Assembly: GCA_022113835.1 (NCBI GenBank)
Contig: JAILWY010000001.1
Location: forward strand, 5,518,001-5,582,000
Origin: Atopsyche davidsoni
Taxonomy: Eukaryota; Arthropoda; Insecta; Trichoptera; Hydrobiosidae
Reading direction: 5' to 3'
Length of the DNA: 64,000 nt
The notes beneath the pieces were generated by a model. The model had not been told where the DNA came from and ran no database searches. It was given only the letters and a program-made list of their open reading frames with translations. Numbering within the stretch: position 1 is the stretch's first letter; each line of letters opens with the position of its first letter. The translations under genes were made by a program, and so were the position numbers. Shown here in pieces: positions 11,643-53,672 of this stretch.

Positions 11643-12122
11643 GAGGCAATCAGTTTATTTTAAATATAAAATTGCAATTATAAAAGTGTCAGATGTACTA
11701 AATTGTATGCTGAATTTTAAGTCACAAGAAACATTCGAATATTTCCAATAACGACGAAAAACCAATTTTTATCTAACTTCAATACGTAAGTATGTTGTAG
11801 TATGTATATTTTATTTTTTTCAAGTAGATGATTTCAGCTGATAGTGATAAAATGATAAGGATCCTATATATATTGAAAAAAAAGGAAGCAATTTTAGTAG
11901 CATTTCAATTATTAAACGGTATAAATATCAAAACTGTTAAACTCAATCGGTAAGTGCCAATTATCTAATTTTTTACAAAGGTTTTCCGTAATTTCATTTC
12001 AAAATTCATTCACAAATTGAGCGTTATAATTAATCAATTTCTCTCATTTCGGACAGAATTATCGGACCAAATATATGAATATATATTATTTATATATGTA
12101 TATTCATACATAAATTTAAAAA
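11643..12122. other. AT-rich DNA upstream of the caspase gene
   Basis: No exon-like segment or promoter motif is convincing here. Confidence 0.45.
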
Positions 12123-12333
<211 letters not shown>

Positions 12334-12631
12334 GTATATTTTTACTACAAATATTTTTTATAGACATTCTTTTGTTTGCTCCAGATAAAAGTACATATTC
12401 GAGTTTTTTTTATCGGTCTGCTTAGATTAAAGGTTGAATTTTTGACATAAGTGGAATTCTTTTTAATTTATAGATATTTTTAAATAAAATAAAACAGGAA
12501 GATCTTCTCAATGAAGCATCCAAACGTGGTATCATTTAAAAAAAAAATCTTTTCTGTTTTATTGACTAAGTATATCGTGTTTTTAATTATTTTTATAATT
12601 TTAATTTTAGGTCTTATATATCTTCTTAAAG

Positions 12632-12710
12632 ATGAGTATCAAGAGAGAATCTAATACTTATGAAGGAGAAACCAAAGGCAGTTGCTATATATTTCACAAT
12701 TACTTCGATG
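12632..12710 (+). CDS. Tandem caspase gene, exon 1 (domain 1 first beta strand)
   Basis: Codes residues 1-26 plus the first base of Gly27. KGSCYIFHNYFDG matches the opening beta strand of a p20 subunit. The donor is gtaaga after phase 1. ATG at 12632 is the best visible start, but the same frame is open back to 12611, directly after a tttaattttag acceptor-like tract, so this may be an internal exon of a longer transcript. Confidence 0.65.
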
Positions 12711-15425
12711 GTAAGATATTTGAACATCAAAATATTCTAAACAGGTATAACATTTATGAAGATTTCAGTAATGTATTTGCATAATTCTCTGTCTAATTTT
12801 TAAACATTGAATATTTGTTTAATAATAAATTACATAATCATCTCAAGGTTAGTTTTTAAATAATTGAGCGACAATGATTTATGTGATCTTACAATAGTGC
12901 GCTTGCATCTTTGTTAAAATAGTTTTCGTGTGCAGTTAATGGTAGGTTAAAATTTCTTCAGCATTTTTATCGAGAATATTGCATACTAACCCGTGGAAAT
13001 AACAATCGTTTGATATATTTATACTTGTTTTAGGTACCAATAAAGATATGACGGAAATCGATTGTATGAAGAATTCATTTAGTTCCATCAATTTTGAAGT
13101 TCATGACCAATATGAGAACTTAAAACTGAAAGATGTGCACACAGAACTAAAAAACAGTAAGTACAAATGGAAACTTAAATCTTCATTGTAATACTTGCTT
13201 TTTGTGCACTAAGCCAAGAGAAACATATATTTTGTCATAAATCATCATTTAGTCAATGATAAGATCAATAATTTTCTACAACCTTGAAATAACTATTTAT
13301 AGTATATATTTAAAATAGTGTCTTTATTTCGAGAAAATATTTTGGTATACAAATGCCCGTATGAATAATGTTCTTTTTATAGCTCGAAGAGATAATCAAT
13401 CCACATTCATAAATTAATAATATCAGATCTGTATCCTATATTTTACATTTTTATAGTATCTTCAGATGAAACTGCTCTCAGAGATATGACATGCATTGTT
13501 ATAATTTTTTTAACAAAGTCTCCTTCAATTGGCAAGCTTTGCCTAGAAGACAAAACCATATGGGAAAATGAAATAATTGAATATTTTATGAGAAATAAAT
13601 GTCCCGGATTAATTGGAAAACCGAAGATCTTTTTTTTTCTAGTAAGATCATCTTAAAATACTAATACTATTTTTATATGTTTGATTTTTGTGATGACCGT
13701 CACAATAAGTGCGATTTTGCCTATACAGGTTTTTATTTATGATTAATTGATTATGTGCATTATTTACACATGAAAAATAATTAAAGAAAAATATCATCGT
13801 GATTTGTGTGGGATTCGAACTCACATCCTCAAGCTTACATGGCCGGTGCATTTAAAAGTCTAGTAATGCAAGTCATACAATATTTAATTGGCATAATAAG
13901 TAAGTTGGTTCACATATAGGATATTATTATTAAAAATTCTCGCTAAGTACGAGTGGCTCGTTAGCATGATTGGTTAAATGCACCGGCCACGTAAGCTTGG
14001 GGATGTGGGTTCGAATCCCATACAAGTCACGATGATATTTTTCTTAGAGTTTCTTGAATCATTTTTCAATGTGTAAAAAAATGTACTTAATCAATCAATC
14101 ATAATAATATTTTATTTTTGTAACATTTTGGTTTTGTTACAAAACACACTGCGAGAATATATTTGTGTGTAGCCTTAGATATAAACCTAAAGATTTTTCA
14201 GTTTTATGCCAGCAGTGAATTAGATTTTTTAAAAATATATATGAAAAAATTAAACCGGCAAACTCACTCTTAATATCAATACTCCACAATTATGAAATTA
14301 AAGATGTTTTTTTACAAAACCTTAATTACGTTATAGTGATAATGATGTCCAAATAAATTATAATCAACACTATGTGGTATTTGTAACATTTTCTATTATT
14401 GTTTTAGACTTCCAAAGCAACTACAGAAGAAATGAATAATATTGAAAAAGATGATGTTGAGGTTTATGAATACTCACACACACTTCCCGTAGAAGCTGAT
14501 CTTTTGATTGTGAGAAGTCTTTTTGAGCCACCATCTACGCTGCTTTCATTTTCGAGTTTATTTTTCAATAATCTCGGAAATCAACCAGCCAAAGAAATAT
14601 ATTTTCTGAATATTATTATGGAATCACTCAGTGATATTTCAAAATGTATTGACCAAAAAAAAAAAAATGATTTCGGACAACATATTCCTCAAATAACCAG
14701 TACACTCACCAAGAGATTGTATGTTAAACGAAATCATAATGAATATTTGGAAAAAAATATAACTTCACCGTCAAATGATGATGACAGTTTGAAAGAATAT
14801 ATGACTTCACCAACAAAAGGAAAATTGTTTATATTCAATTTCGAGAATGTTTATAAAACTGATACTGAAGGTATGGAGTTTTTGAAAGTTGTTTAATTAT
14901 ATATTTTGTTAAAATAAATAAAAATAATTGTGTATTTCAGAAAATCTTCCTCGTCTAGGAACAAAACACGATGTAGATAAACTAGAACAAACATTTAAAA
15001 ATCGAGGCTTCTATGTATCGACAGAAAATGATAAAAGCAAGAATGAAATGATAAATATTTTGAAAGGTTTGTTCTTTCAAAAAAAAAATCTCATGAATAT
15101 AAAGAATGCCTTGTTGATAAGTTTGAACATTTGCAAAAAAGGATTTTAAATTTATTGATTTGGAAATTTCAGAGACAAGTTTTGAAAAAATTGACTGTGT
15201 CGGTGTTGTAGTGATGACTCATTCGATGATGGGAGAATTAGGAACCACAGATAGTCCTATATCTGAAAAAGACCTGTTTGATTGTTTGAAAAACCATCCT
15301 AATTTAGATGGAAAACCGAAATTTTTCATTTTCCAGGTAATCAATTCCTTTATTATTTGGTAGTCATTTTGTGATGTTCTGCGAGCGAGTTTTCGGTACC
15401 AAGAGAACGAATCACCTAATATACG

Positions 15426-15466
<41 letters not shown>

Positions 15467-17471
15467 TTACGTATATAACATATATTTATCTATATATATA
15501 AAACACAAAAGATGTTTGTGTGTCCGTCATAGGCTTTGAAACCATCCAACCGATGTGCCCCAAACCGGTTTCATTTGATAGGCAATAATACGGGTAATCT
15601 CTGTGACTATTAAAACAATGCATTAAATACATTCGGTCTATTAATTAAGTCGATTTTCAACATTTTCTGTACAAAAATTTTCAACATATGTAAAATTGAG
15701 ATCGTTCCTCGCTAAAAATTTGAAAAAAGAACATTGTGAAGATCGCGCATAAAACAAAATCACTATCTGTCATTCACAACAGAGAGTTTTTTCATAGTGA
15801 GTTTGTCTGTTTGTATATGGGAAAAAAATATTAAACAAAAATATTCGTATTTCAAGTTTCATCTACGGATTATTATGCATATGGCATTATGATAAGAGCC
15901 TTTAAAATGCCGTGAAGTGTTTCATCAGTTCATTGTTGACATGTACGCCAAAATTGAAAGCGAGCGGCTTCTGTACATTCGTTTTAACCAAAATAAATTG
16001 CGTATAGAAGATTATATCCATTCGCGCGATGCGATTGCAATATTGCATATGCATGAGTATGCTTAAGATGCTTTGACGTAGGCATTCAGGCGATTAAAGC
16101 AAAAACGGAGATTACCGCACGCTCATATTCTAATTTGGCTGATAAAAACAATTGTTCCAACTCAAATCAATAGTGTTATTTATATCTGCTGAACTACCGA
16201 ATCTACAAGAAGACGTTGTCTGCAAGAACATGATTCACGGCCCACGCGGAGCATTGAATATGAACTCGCCTTGCATGAAAGACAGCAAATGCACGAAAAG
16301 ATATCCACGCGATTTGATTAATGAAACTCAAACTGGTCAGGATGGGGATGGATATTGACATTGATATTGATATTGATATGTACATATGCAAATATGTTAA
16401 CAGTAATGAAGCTGTCTGCTGAATTCTTGGTTTTAGTATTCACGAATGATATCCAACTGTTCAATCCAATCTTGCTGTTCATTTAGAAAACGGTCAACGT
16501 GTTTATTTTACTGAAAAAAAAATGTCGAAGAACGAGGAGCACAGCTACAATAATTTTGCGAAAACATTGCTGTATAATGAAGTTCCAAAATAGAGTCAAC
16601 TATCCAATAGAGATTTTTAACTATTTGGAACCATCTGGAATGCCACCACACATCATAACTTTAAAAGTTGGTTCACCATAGATGCTCATTCGCAACTTGG
16701 ATCCACCTAAATTGTGTAACGTAACAAGACTTGCTGTTAAAAAACTATCGCCAAGTAGTTAATCGAAGCCACAATCAAAATCAAAGCCGAAAAATCTTTG
16801 TTTACACACCTACCGAAAAAACTCAATATATTGTTTATCCGCTAGCATTAAGATAAAAAAGTTAGTAAAAAACAAAATTTCCTTTTTTCGAACAAATAAA
16901 ATAAATGTATTAATTTTTTTAGCGAAGTAGAACACGCCGGGTATCCGCTAGTATTTAATAAACATGATATGAGTATTAAAATTGAAACAAAAGGATTATT
17001 TCCCTGATAATAAGAAGAAACATATTTGTTTTCATTGCTAAAGCACAGTAAATAAATGTTTTAATATAAATATTTAAAAAATAATTGTTGTAGGTTTGCA
17101 GAGGAAATAAATTGCGGGGAGAAATGCAACATAAAAGTAATCCTAGCAGTGCTTACGAAGAACGTTTCTTGTCATCAAAATGTATTTATTTGGGTGGAGG
17201 TGATATGTTTGCTGTACACAGCACCTATGACGAGGAACCCTTAATTTGGAATAAAAATAAAGGTACATGGTTTATACAAACAATTTGCAATCGTTTAAAT
17301 ATGCCAAAGAAGGGTAATAGAGAAGATACTATGATAGATATTTTTAATGATGTTCAACGCGAAGTTGCAATAACAAAAGAGGCTATTTTCACTCTAAACA
17401 ATGGCACAATGATACGCTTCAAACAGATGCCAGTAGTATACAGTACACTAACAAAACATTTTTATATTTAA
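12632..17471 (+). CDS. Tandem caspase-like protein (pseudocaspase domain fused to caspase domain), 7 exons, 505 aa
   Basis: Seen: exons 12632-12710, 13034-13156, 13457-13641, 14408-14870, 14941-15066, 15173-15336 and 17094-17471 all have GT/AG borders and join in one frame with no stop until TAA at 17469-17471. The product has two caspase (peptidase C14) units. Domain 1 is about residues 16-235 and ends in the p10 signature STLTKRLYV. Domain 2 is about 265-505 and ends STLTKHFYI. Domain 2 keeps RLGT (Arg288), MTHS (His342) and QVCRG (Cys382); domain 1 has FDGT, LTKS and LTSKA at these places, so both catalytic residues are lost. The linker (about 236-264) contains a DDD run that could be an Asp cleavage site. 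There is no death-fold prodomain if ATG 12632 is the start, but the frame stays open upstream to an AG acceptor at 12609-12610, so further 5' exons are possible. Known of the family: caspases are cytosolic Cys proteases that cut after Asp in apoptosis or immune signalling. Inferred: domain 1 acts as a built-in regulator of domain 2. A poly(A) signal lies at 17672. Confidence 0.82.
13034..13156 (+). CDS. Tandem caspase gene, exon 2 (domain 1 p20)
   Basis: Acceptor ttttag, donor gtaagt, phase 1 at both ends. It codes FDGTNKDMTEID through to HTELKN, the GTxxD helix region of p20. The Arg that normally precedes xGT and binds the substrate Asp is replaced by Phe25, coded in exon 1. Confidence 0.75.
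13457..13641 (+). CDS. Tandem caspase gene, exon 3 (domain 1, His and Cys box region)
   Basis: Codes ETALRDMTCIVIIFLTKS and ends GKPKIFFFL. The catalytic His position is Lys88 and the exon ends where Q-A-C-R-G would begin, with Leu129 for Gln. Two in-frame AG acceptors lie 9 nt apart (exon start 13457 or 13466). Alignment with domain 2 (LK-ETSFEKIDC) favours 13466 for at least some transcripts. Donor is gtaaga, phase 0. Confidence 0.75.
13740..13860 (-). repeat. tRNA-derived SINE in caspase intron 3 (antisense copy)
   Basis: On the - strand it shares with the copy at 13953 the TTAAATGCACCGGCC block, a B box GAGTTCGAATCCCAC and the CACGATGATATTTTTCTT body. The 5' (A-box) part is diverged or lost. 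The two copies face opposite directions about 100 bp apart inside intron 3 and could pair in the pre-mRNA. Confidence 0.55.
13953..14100 (+). repeat. tRNA-derived SINE in caspase intron 3 (sense copy)
   Basis: The first 78 nt fold as a tRNA-like unit: outer GTGGC pairs with GTCAC at the end, an A-box-like TAGCATGATTGG follows, and a B box GGGTTCGAATCCC is present. A non-tRNA body and A/T-rich tail continue to about 14100. It lies in an intron and has a diverged mate in opposite orientation at 13740-13860, which points to a SINE family and away from a functional tRNA gene. Confidence 0.6.
14408..14870 (+). CDS. Tandem caspase gene, exon 4 (domain 1 p10, linker, start of domain 2)
   Basis: Starts in phase 0 after gttttag with TSKATTEE, so Ser131 sits at the Cys position. 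It then carries an acidic inter-subunit stretch (IEKDDVE), the p10 block VEADLLIVRS, a helix-rich part and the p10 ending QITSTLTKRLYV. After a linker with a DDD run it enters domain 2 with TKGKLFIFNFENVY. Phase-1 donor at 14871. A single exon bridging both domains is strong evidence that the two units are one gene, not two neighbours. Confidence 0.8.
14941..15066 (+). CDS. Tandem caspase gene, exon 5 (domain 2, RxGT region)
   Basis: Acceptor tatttcag, phase 1 in and out. Codes ENLPRLGTKHDVDKLEQTF and the following GF-V-E-N helix ending INILK. The Arg of the substrate S1 pocket (Arg288) is present, unlike in domain 1. The donor gtttgt is weaker than the others. Confidence 0.78.
15173..15336 (+). 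CDS. Tandem caspase gene, exon 6 (domain 2, catalytic His)
   Basis: Acceptor atttcag; phase 1 in, phase 0 out. Codes ETSFEKIDCVGVVVMTHSMM with His342 in the catalytic His position. The usual following Gly is Ser. It ends KPKFFIFQ at donor gtaatc, so Gln380 is the Q of the pentapeptide and the Cys is in the next exon. Confidence 0.8.
15430..15465. repeat. (AT)n microsatellite in caspase intron 6
   Basis: Perfect dinucleotide run just upstream of the Helitron 5' end. Confidence 0.95.
15489..16951 (+). mobile_element. Internally deleted Helitron in caspase intron 6
   Basis: Seen: the 5' end begins TCTATATATATAAAA and the 3' end is GGGTATCCGCTAG, between a flanking A (15488) and T (16952), the A^T target of Helitrons. 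Inside, on the same strand, are relics of the Rep/helicase protein: DMYAKIESERLLYIRFNQ near 15937, an ISAELP-KNMIHGP-GALN-NSPCMKD segment at about 16180-16350, and a PIF1-type helicase end (YPIEIFNYLEPSGMPPH, then a stop, then RNLDPPKLCN) at about 16590-16740. Stops and internal joins show it is dead. It sits in sense orientation to the host gene. Confidence 0.85.
16152..16358 (+). pseudogene. Helitron Rep/helicase fragment
   Basis: The reading frame contains LPNLQEDVVCKNMIHGPRG and NMNSPCMKDSKCTKRYPRD, the Cys/His-rich stretch of Helitron helicase-like proteins that lies after the Rep domain. It is bounded by frame breaks and runs into a GATATT microsatellite at 16350-16380. It is a relic, not a gene. 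Confidence 0.75.
17094..17471 (+). CDS. Tandem caspase gene, exon 7 (domain 2 catalytic Cys and p10, stop)
   Basis: Acceptor gttgtag, phase 0, beginning VCRGN, which completes QVCRG with Cys382. The p10 block GGGDMFAVHSTYDEE and KGTWFIQTICNRLN is clear, and the chain ends STLTKHFYI then TAA. The p10 Arg that follows the conserved Trp in typical caspases is not seen here (WNKNKGTWFIQ). No Asp occurs in the Cys-to-p10 stretch before GGGD, so a classic Asp processing site between subunits is not evident. Confidence 0.82.
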   Translation, partial: VCRGNKLRGEMQHKSNPSSAYEERFLSSKCIYLGGGDMFAVHSTYDEEPLIWNKNKGTWFIQTICNRLNMPKKGNREDTMIDIFNDVQREVAITKEAIFTLNNGTMIRFKQMPVVYSTLTKHFYI

Positions 17472-17671
17472 GATATTTTTTTAATTTGTGCATTGTTATT
17501 AGTTGGGTTGAGGTTTTTAATGTTATTTTAAAATTTGAGATATTTTGTACTTAAATACTATCGAGTTGTGCATTATGAAAACAATATTTTTTAAAAATGA
17601 ATGATCATCACTGCACGATTGTGAATTTAATTTTTTTATGAATTTGTTTTAACCATACATATTATATTGTC

Positions 17672-17677
17672 AATAAA
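17672..17677 (+). terminator. Polyadenylation signal of the tandem caspase gene
   Basis: An AATAAA hexamer lies about 200 nt after the TAA of the caspase gene, with no competing gene between. The placement fits a short 3' UTR; other AT-rich hexamers nearby keep it uncertain. Confidence 0.4.
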
Positions 17678-17761
17678 TTTATATTGAAAAAGCTTTTTCA
17701 TTTTAATTACTAGCTTCGGATTACCCTGTAAATTCTGTGGAGAAAAAAATAGTATTAGTTC

Positions 17762-17850
17762 TTCTTCTCCCTTTTTCTGATGCCTCTCTTCATATGAGGT
17801 TGGTGACCATTTCATCGAACATATTTCTATTCAGACCTGGCGGAGTGAAT
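17762..17850 (-). repeat. LINE family Y 3' tail
   Basis: On the - strand it reads MFDEMVTNLI, stop, then GAGAGGCATC with A/G-rich DNA, the same terminal segment as at 23265-23310. It lies just past the poly(A) signal of the caspase gene. Confidence 0.55.
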
Positions 17851-27740: not shown

Positions 27741-27745
27741 GAAGT

Positions 27746-28840
27746 GTGAAAATGTTTTGTCGATGTAGAAAATATATTTTTTTAAATATTTTAATACGAC
27801 AAGTATTCAACAATATTAGCTCCTTCTTTGGGTTAGGTTAGGTTGTGTGAAAATGTTTTGTCGATGTGCAAAATAATTTTTTTCAGATATTTTCACCCTT
27901 TGCACTCGAGACCGTTTCCGCGCGGACTAATCAGCAACTCGAAGCGTTTCGTAGCGCTTTTGGTGAATTTCTTACCTCCAATATAAAATGATCACACACA
28001 CAAATTAATATTTAATGTAACATAAGTCTTTGTAATTTTGCTTTGTATGATATTTCATGTAACAATTGCCGAGATGCAAGCCCGGCTTTTCGGGACAAGT
28101 ATCACAATTGTATGTCGTATGATGTCTTTTGCCGGGTTTATTGTAAATATTATCTTAACTCATTTTAAGCAGGTAACCACATTAGTGACATAAGTGATGT
28201 GCGTAGCGGGCAAAATTCGCGTAAAATTGCGCGTGCGAAATCTAGTCTATTCACCCTTTGATTTGCACTCTGTTTTGCAACTGTTATGATTGTTTAGTTG
28301 TAAGGTAATAAAAACGGAAGAGATAAGAGTCTGTCAATAATGTATTTTGCATACAATTTAAAGTTTAAAATTTATTTTGGTGTGGTATTTATTAAAACGT
28401 TCTATACATTTAAATTATGAGTGATCGGGATGTAAACAATAACAAGACGAAATTTATAGCTCCTTATCTTTATTACATAATCAAATGTTAAAGAAGTAAC
28501 CTTGAAGAGTCTAAAGAAAAATTACATTTTTGTAAAAATGACATTTTGCCGCTTTTAGAGTAAGCACATTCAAAAAGGTACAAATACATGTCCCGCTGAT
28601 AAGACAGCAGTTCCCGAAACGGGTATTAGTACCCGCCTCGCTTTTAGACAGCAGTCCGCGAAACGGGCACTAGTACCCGCCCCGCCTTTAGTGTGTACTA
28701 CGAGTATTCTACAATATTAACTCCTTCTTTGGGTTAGGTTAGGTTGTGTGAAAATGTTTTGTCGATGTGCAAAACGAAATTTTTCAGATATTTTAATACG
28801 ACAAGTATTAAACAATATTAACCCCTTCTTTTGGTGCCTC
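27746..28840 (+). repeat. Tandem repeat of about 96 bp, three units, interrupted
   Basis: The unit runs GTGTGAAAATGTTTTGTCGA ... CAGATATTTTAATACGACAA ... CCTTCTTTGGGTTAGGTTAG. Unit 1 is 27746-27840, unit 2 starts at 27843 and is broken at 27893, resuming at about 28697, and unit 3 starts at 28743. The units differ by a few substitutions. Confidence 0.65.
27895..28695 (-). mobile_element. piggyBac-related element, second copy
   Basis: The reverse complement of 28180-28270 and of 28545-28690 matches 46530-46600 and 46169-46280. Left-end sequence CCCTTTGCACTCGAG after TTCA resembles a piggyBac terminus after a decayed TTAA; a similar CACCCTTTGATTTGCACTC occurs at 28250. It interrupts a tandem repeat (see 27746-28840), whose unit contains TTAA at the break. 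No transposase frame remains. Confidence 0.55.
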
Positions 28841-52960: not shown

Positions 52961-53583
52961 TATTACACCTAAAGATTCAAAGTAATACCTGTTCAGTATA
53001 TTTTCACCGTGCCTTATTATTCAACACATTTATTTAAGGAGAAAACAAATTATGTTCAGTATTAGCATTTAGAAAAGATTTAAAACGGAATAATTCTGCA
53101 CATTTCGTGTGAATAAAATGGCCTTTCTCGCAGAGTGATATATTTTATTACAAAAGTTTGCGGGCATTAGTCAGACGGGACTATAAAAAATGTAGCAAAA
53201 AATCGGTAGGATTTGAAGTGATTATAAATAATAAATTCTTTAAATATAAGTTTAATCGCTATTAAATTTATGAAATGTTTTGGTCATTAACGAGGCAATT
53301 ACCTCTCATTTTTTTAACGTCAGTTTTTTTTTTGTTTTATCATTTCTTTCAAATCTTCAACCGCAACCCACATTTTAATTCAAGATTACAAACTTATTTT
53401 TCCTGACAGCAAAAAAAATGGAAATACTTGGAAGATTTGGATATTGACATGGGAGGTCATTATGTTTTCGGTCCGCAGTTTTTGCCAGTCCCTCTGAACG
53501 ATATTCGCCTTTTCAGATTGATTTTCAGATATTCCCGCAAAAAAGGGCCGTTTTATAAATTACATTTATAAATATATATATTA

Positions 53584-53672
<89 letters not shown>

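Follow-up and report, generated by a model that had tools for sequence, protein, structure and literature searches.

Structure of the gene

The locus described here lies in a 64-kb window of the Atopsyche davidsoni (Trichoptera) genome (C1:5518001-5582000, forward strand), and all positions are those of this window, the whole stretch of DNA that was analysed, unless another coordinate system is named. Between 12632 and 17471, seven exons on the plus strand join into a coding sequence of 1518 nucleotides, corresponding to 505 amino acids and a stop codon, and six of the six introns are bordered by GT...AG. The seven-exon, in-frame protein of the original prediction was thus borne out. It would comprise a caspase-like domain devoid of catalytic residues (domain 1), followed by a second caspase domain of unusual composition (domain 2).

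In the joined gene model, exon 1 (12632..12710) carries strand β1 of domain 1 and ends in phase 1 at the splice donor G|gtaaga, exon 2 (13034..13156) continues domain 1 and also ends in phase 1, and exon 3 (13457..13641), placed by gene model and alignment, encodes p20 of domain 1 and ends in phase 0. On the evidence of the gene model and of frame statistics, exon 4 (14408..14870, 463 nucleotides) holds in a single open frame the p10-like part of domain 1, the interdomain linker (amino acids 239-266; 14735-14818) and β1 of domain 2. Within this linker, Asp253-255 (14777..14785) form the sequence NDDD|S, a possible caspase-type cleavage site. Domain 2 extends through exon 5 (14941..15066, ending in phase 1) and exon 6 (15173..15336, p20, ending in phase 0, supported by gene model and alignment) to exon 7 (17094..17471), which encodes an intersubunit linker free of Asp, the β6 strand and the stop codon.

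Because both the last part of domain 1 and the beginning of domain 2 are encoded by exon 4 without a break in the frame, exons 1-7 likely constitute a single gene with both caspase domains. The frame of exon 4 stayed open in none of 200,000 first-order Markov shuffles, and the chance of an open frame, taken as a product over the seven exons with exon 4 counted as 0.5 in 200,000, is about 2e-18. Measured between stop codons, the open reading frame (ORF) around exon 4 has 162 amino acids, and only one of the 14 ORFs of at least 110 amino acids in the window is longer.

Both halves of the protein match the caspase family. The whole protein matched Pfam PF00656 (Peptidase_C14) in two stretches (E value 5.1e-45, 154.4 bits), the best of which covers residues 285-504. 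When residues 1-238 were compared alone with PF00656, the match had an E value of 1.8e-12 and a score of 47.9 bits, well above chance given a gathering score of 21.4; the profile check proposed with the original prediction therefore recognised a caspase in each half. Residues 1-238 also matched solved caspases (best 3sir_A, 8.3e-09), and the second half matched caspase-3 chains (best 1.2e-19). The description of the protein as two full p20+p10 units agrees with the two C14 stretches but is slightly generous, as the L3 substrate loop and helices 4 and 5 of domain 1 are poorly conserved.

Domain 1 is predicted to be a pseudocaspase

We aligned 23 caspase domains from the window, from the same genome and from database relatives, 17 of which are reference domains. 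In this alignment, domain 1 has Lys88 (codon 13516-13518, exon 3) at the position of the catalytic His, Ser131 (codon 14411-14413, exon 4) at that of the catalytic Cys and Leu129 at that of the Gln, all three where they had been predicted, and a gap in the column of the first P1-binding Arg. The proposed replacement of this Arg by Phe25 holds in part: Phe25 is present and domain 1 has no Arg there, but the Arg-equivalent column is an alignment gap, so that Phe25 represents one possible alignment.

Conservation was scored in 38 active-site and 88 scaffold columns picked by the analyst, with gaps set to -3 and helices 4 and 5 left out. The mean deficit of domain 1 relative to the 17 references was -2.73 in the active-site columns and -0.13 in the scaffold, and none of 10,000 label shuffles was as extreme. 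The L3 loop scored -0.25 compared to 2.49 in the references, and the β6 strand 1.77, the reference mean being 1.78. Helices 4 and 5, which lie outside the deficit test, reached -0.25 compared to a reference mean of 1.25. These results support a catalytically dead domain 1 that has lost its active-site columns and retained the dimer strand β6 and the larger part of its scaffold. Since the loss is local to the active site and β6 remains at the reference level, the pattern is more readily explained by a putative pseudocaspase retained for pairing than by a randomly drifting domain.

Domain 2 retains the catalytic dyad and has lost other conserved residues

Domain 2 keeps the predicted first P1-binding Arg, Arg288 (codon 14952-14954, exon 5), the dyad formed by His342 (15220-15222, exon 6) and Cys382 (17097-17099, exon 7), and Gln380 (15334-15336, exon 6). 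The catalytic plausibility initially attributed to it is upheld by these four residues but weakened by the absence of the Gly that follows the His, of the second P1-binding Arg and of the linker Asp. Ser343 stands immediately after His342, a position occupied by Gly in 17 of the 17 reference domains; in caspase-1, the amide of Gly238 is described as part of the oxyanion hole (PMC10088814). The column of the second P1-binding Arg, reported to be Arg341 in caspase-1 (PMC10088814), contains Arg in 15 references, Lys in the other two and Trp432 in domain 2, or Asn433 if the gap is set by eye as in the comparison with the C18 genes described below (Trp432/Asn433 codons, 17247-17252, exon 7). Less telling is the Leu found in the column of caspase-1 Ser339, where the references show Ser (12), Ala (4) or Pro (1). 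An Asp in the p20/p10 linker is a criterion for caspase processing; at least one is present in each of the 22 other aligned domains and none in domain 2.

The L3 loop of domain 2 (1.24) scored below the lowest reference (1.57), and its Cys loop (2.30) fell within the reference range, the lowest reference being 2.11. The active-site deficit of -0.72 is below that of all 17 references (lowest -0.52) and does not significantly exceed the deficit of the scaffold columns (2010 of 10,000 shuffles). Judged from its sequence, domain 2 would be neither a normal caspase nor a plainly dead one.

Origin of the two halves and related genes in the genome

The intron phases are 1-1-0 in the first half of the gene and again 1-1-0 in the second. 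When the halves are compared, the third introns share a codon border, the second introns differ by no more than about one codon, and the first introns are no more than 3-6 codons apart, according to the alignment used. Introns two and three of each half, with like phases, were also found in three genes of C18 and one of C6 that we inspected, the border being unclear in a further C6 gene, and these two introns are therefore probably old. By contrast, the first intron is present in both halves and was not seen in the inspected C18 and C6 genes, and the p10 intron of the latter is absent from both halves. As the halves share the first intron and both lack the p10 intron, unlike the inspected C18 and C6 genes, these data favour an origin by duplication of one caspase gene, in which the last exon would have fused to the first exon.

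In the domain tree, which gives no support to such a duplication, the two halves were sisters in 0 of 200 bootstrap trees, a grouping that was not rejected by the approximately unbiased test (p-AU 0.262). Placing domain 2 with the C18 and C6 genes costs just 0.49 log units, and placing domain 1 with them 6.59 log units (p-AU 0.084). The branches of the two halves are very long (3.7 and 3.1 changes per column).

Scanning the 370.7-Mb genome with PF00656 returned 32 matches, of which 20 are located on C18 (17.50-17.61 Mb). In this region (C18:17497632-17611139; L009-L021), complete and fragmentary caspase genes form a large tandem array, and a closer scan revealed 16 matches to the His-loop exon, some of them fragments. 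Near-identical copies occur within it, some inverted, such as those at 17504.6-17506.4 kb (minus strand) and 17510.4-17512.1 kb (plus strand). On the minus strand of C6 (5491508-5499228; L022), a QACRG caspase has a caspase-like neighbour 1.3 kb further downstream in the same orientation; this second gene reads MTQG in place of the His box, and IIL precedes its Cys position. In the QACRG gene, a good splice donor (AGA|gtgagt) closes the last caspase exon, and an active-then-dead fusion is possible on this arrangement, although a clear splice acceptor was not found at the locus. Finally, L001-L004 comprise three QACQG caspases and one QSCQG caspase with a long N-terminal half, which may be Dredd-like; their coding frames are intronless, unlike those of the C18, C6 and window genes.

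Other features of the window

No further caspase gene was found in the 64-kb window by tblastn. DEDs are carried by c-FLIP; neither a DED nor a CARD gave a Pfam match at E<=1 in the 10 upstream open frames searched out of 54, a distant 5' exon being still possible, and one of these 10 frames gave three weak matches to other families. Two transposon-related elements lie in introns, outside the mRNA, on the plus strand. Intron 3 contains a tRNA-derived repeat pair (13808..14040), in which ARAGORN detected a tRNA-Thr-like sequence (13955-14030) and the inverted partner was recognised by eye. Intron 6 contains a decayed Helitron fragment (15896..16678; Helitron_like_N, 1.3e-06), the Pfam match being confined to 15896-16063 and the remainder resting on a sub-threshold match and inspection by eye. 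Long AT/TA dinucleotide runs are present at 12071-12332, 15430-15500 and 53567-53669, one of which stops 300 bases upstream of the gene. At 27744-28835, repeated units contain short GGTTAGGTTAGG stretches that resemble interstitial TTAGG repeats.

Tandem caspases in other arthropods

Two whole-protein database searches gave 6 and 14 matches, corresponding to 19 different proteins, their reach being limited to sequences that have short identical words in common with the query. Among the matches were at least five arthropod proteins with a tandem of caspase domains, all of them predicted or database entries, which in this respect resemble the window gene. Two QACRG boxes are found in the proteins from Condylostylus longicornis (P0001), a fly, and from Anabrus simplex (P0007), the Mormon cricket, the first domain of the latter lacking its N-terminal part. 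The protein from Leptopilina boulardi (P0002), a wasp, has QACRG and then QTNRG. The 771-amino-acid protein from Ephemera danica (P0004), a mayfly, consists of a QTCRS caspase, a degenerate caspase p20 and TPR repeats, and the 590-amino-acid protein from Nephila pilipes (P0015), a spider, of a QACRG caspase and a degenerate caspase domain. In P0015, the first domain has Lys in the second P1-Arg column, and the second domain Phe at the His position and Tyr at the Cys position.

Three of the five tandems (P0002, P0004 and P0015) have no catalytic Cys in their second domain. These three have the active domain first, whereas the window gene has the dead domain first, an order found in none of the five arthropod database tandems. 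Within P0001 and within P0002, the two domains are the nearest kin of each other (support 99/98 and 100/99, respectively), from which these two fusions appear to be independent events. AlphaFold2 models of the relatives were inconclusive as to packing, both for the wasp tandem (Leptopilina boulardi; predicted local distance difference test, pLDDT, 64; predicted template modelling score, pTM, 0.66) and for the fly tandem (pLDDT 50, pTM 0.39).

Published proteins of similar layout

The Acropora coral protein Caspase-X is described as having two C14 domains, the first without the catalytic His and Cys and the second with both (PMC4715348). The same report states that removal of the inactive domain led to more killing of HeLa cells than the full protein, and its authors propose a model in which the two domains are paired via their β6 strands (PMC4715348). 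The gene model presented here likewise places a dead N-terminal domain and a dyad-bearing C-terminal domain in one gene. The coral protein belongs to a different phylum and is likened to ours by its published description rather than by sequence; its second domain is reported as typical in all respects (PMC4715348), whereas domain 2 of the window gene has lost the Gly after the His, the second P1-Arg and the linker Asp. The dead-then-dyad order is also that of mammalian CASP16, in which a pseudocaspase N-terminal half is reported to derive from exon duplication and the C-terminal half to carry the dyad (PMC12198278). Its linker exons are described as duplicated again and the residues critical for catalysis as conserved (PMC12198278); this protein is of vertebrate origin, and the comparison again relies on its description. 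In addition, four mussel caspases with two CASc domains are on record (PMC10967218).

Control of an active caspase by a dead homologue is described for c-FLIP(L) and caspase-8 (PMC4715348, PMC12198278) and, in Aedes aegypti, for the decoy CASPS18 acting on CASPS19 (PMC4840389). In both cases the partners are separate chains, whereas both domains are in one predicted chain here. The presumed novelty of the layout must accordingly be restricted: the same order is already published in other phyla, and the new elements are its occurrence in an insect, no dead-then-live insect tandem having been found in the literature searched, and the unusual second domain.

Possible function of the tethered domains

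The interpretation that we put forward, at about even confidence, is that domain 1 acts as a tethered, non-catalytic dimer partner that regulates the atypical domain 2. The two halves would most likely pair inside one chain through β6, in the manner of c-FLIP with caspase-8, and the conservation of domain 1 β6 at the reference level suggests that pairing is retained. Domain 1 would then be a built-in partner keeping domain 2 in a state of low or altered activity, and another caspase could cut the Asp-rich linker at NDDD|S to free domain 2. Several of the above results weigh against this interpretation. The Ser after the catalytic His, the missing second P1-Arg, the Asp-free p20/p10 linker and the low L3 loop score put a normal activity of domain 2 in question. 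Helices 4 and 5 of domain 1 are eroded, the domain tree does not unite the two halves and would place domain 2 about as well with the C18 and C6 genes, and the structural models of the relatives do not settle how such domains pack.

The losses in domain 2 are also what would be expected of a double decoy, the main rival, in which both domains are effectively inactive and pair in trans with this insect's active C18 and C6 caspases, whose activity they would lower or raise in the way reported for CASPS18 and CASPS19; we regard it as a real but clearly lesser possibility. Domain 2 has no equivalents of caspase-1 Gly238 and Arg341 and no linker Asp, its active-site deficit lies below that of each of the 17 references, potential partners exist in the C18 array with its 16 His-loop exon matches, and the mosquito decoy provides a precedent (PMC4840389). 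However, Arg288, His342, Gln380 and Cys382, together with a Cys loop in the reference range, are features that should hardly have persisted in a domain dead for a long time. Nor does the deficit in the active-site columns of domain 2 significantly exceed that in its scaffold. It is improbable that domain 2 forms an ordinary inducible homodimer with domain 2 of another chain, domain 1 being just a bulky prodomain: intermolecular pairing was named as an alternative by the CASP16 authors (PMC12198278), but the reference-level β6 of domain 1 suggests that this domain still pairs.

The single gene itself could be questioned if one transcript ended after exon 4 and another started inside exon 4 at Met261. 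An in-frame stop (14894-14896) lies 24 bases into intron 4, and poly(A)-like AATAAA signals follow at 14913 and 14917; nevertheless, AATAAA or ATTAAA occurs 24 times on the plus strand in 12601-17800, so that this signal says little, intron 4 is bordered by GT-AG and joins in frame, and a single exon codes for the last part of domain 1 and the beginning of domain 2. We hold two such transcripts to be rather improbable. Still more improbable is a dying gene without function: the very long branches and the transposon remnants within introns 3 and 6 might point to it, but the 1518 coding bases are free of stops and frameshifts, the splice borders are intact and the scaffold columns of domain 1 are near the reference mean.

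Going beyond the tethered-partner interpretation, it is conceivable, although we think it unlikely, that arthropods repeatedly built covalent pseudocaspase-caspase pairs and that here the live half also rebuilt its S1 pocket, without the second Arg, with Ser for the oxyanion Gly and without a self-cleavage Asp. The product would then be a protease that is always paired, does not process itself and has a non-Asp specificity set by its dead twin.

If expressed, the gene would provide a caspase pseudo-heterodimer fixed at 1:1 by the gene itself, in which control by a dead partner could be studied without mixing two proteins. Taken with the five arthropod database entries and with the coral and mammalian proteins, it suggests that two-domain tethering followed by the loss of one active site has occurred several times. 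The window gene looks like another case in which evolution has tethered a caspase to its own dead partner.

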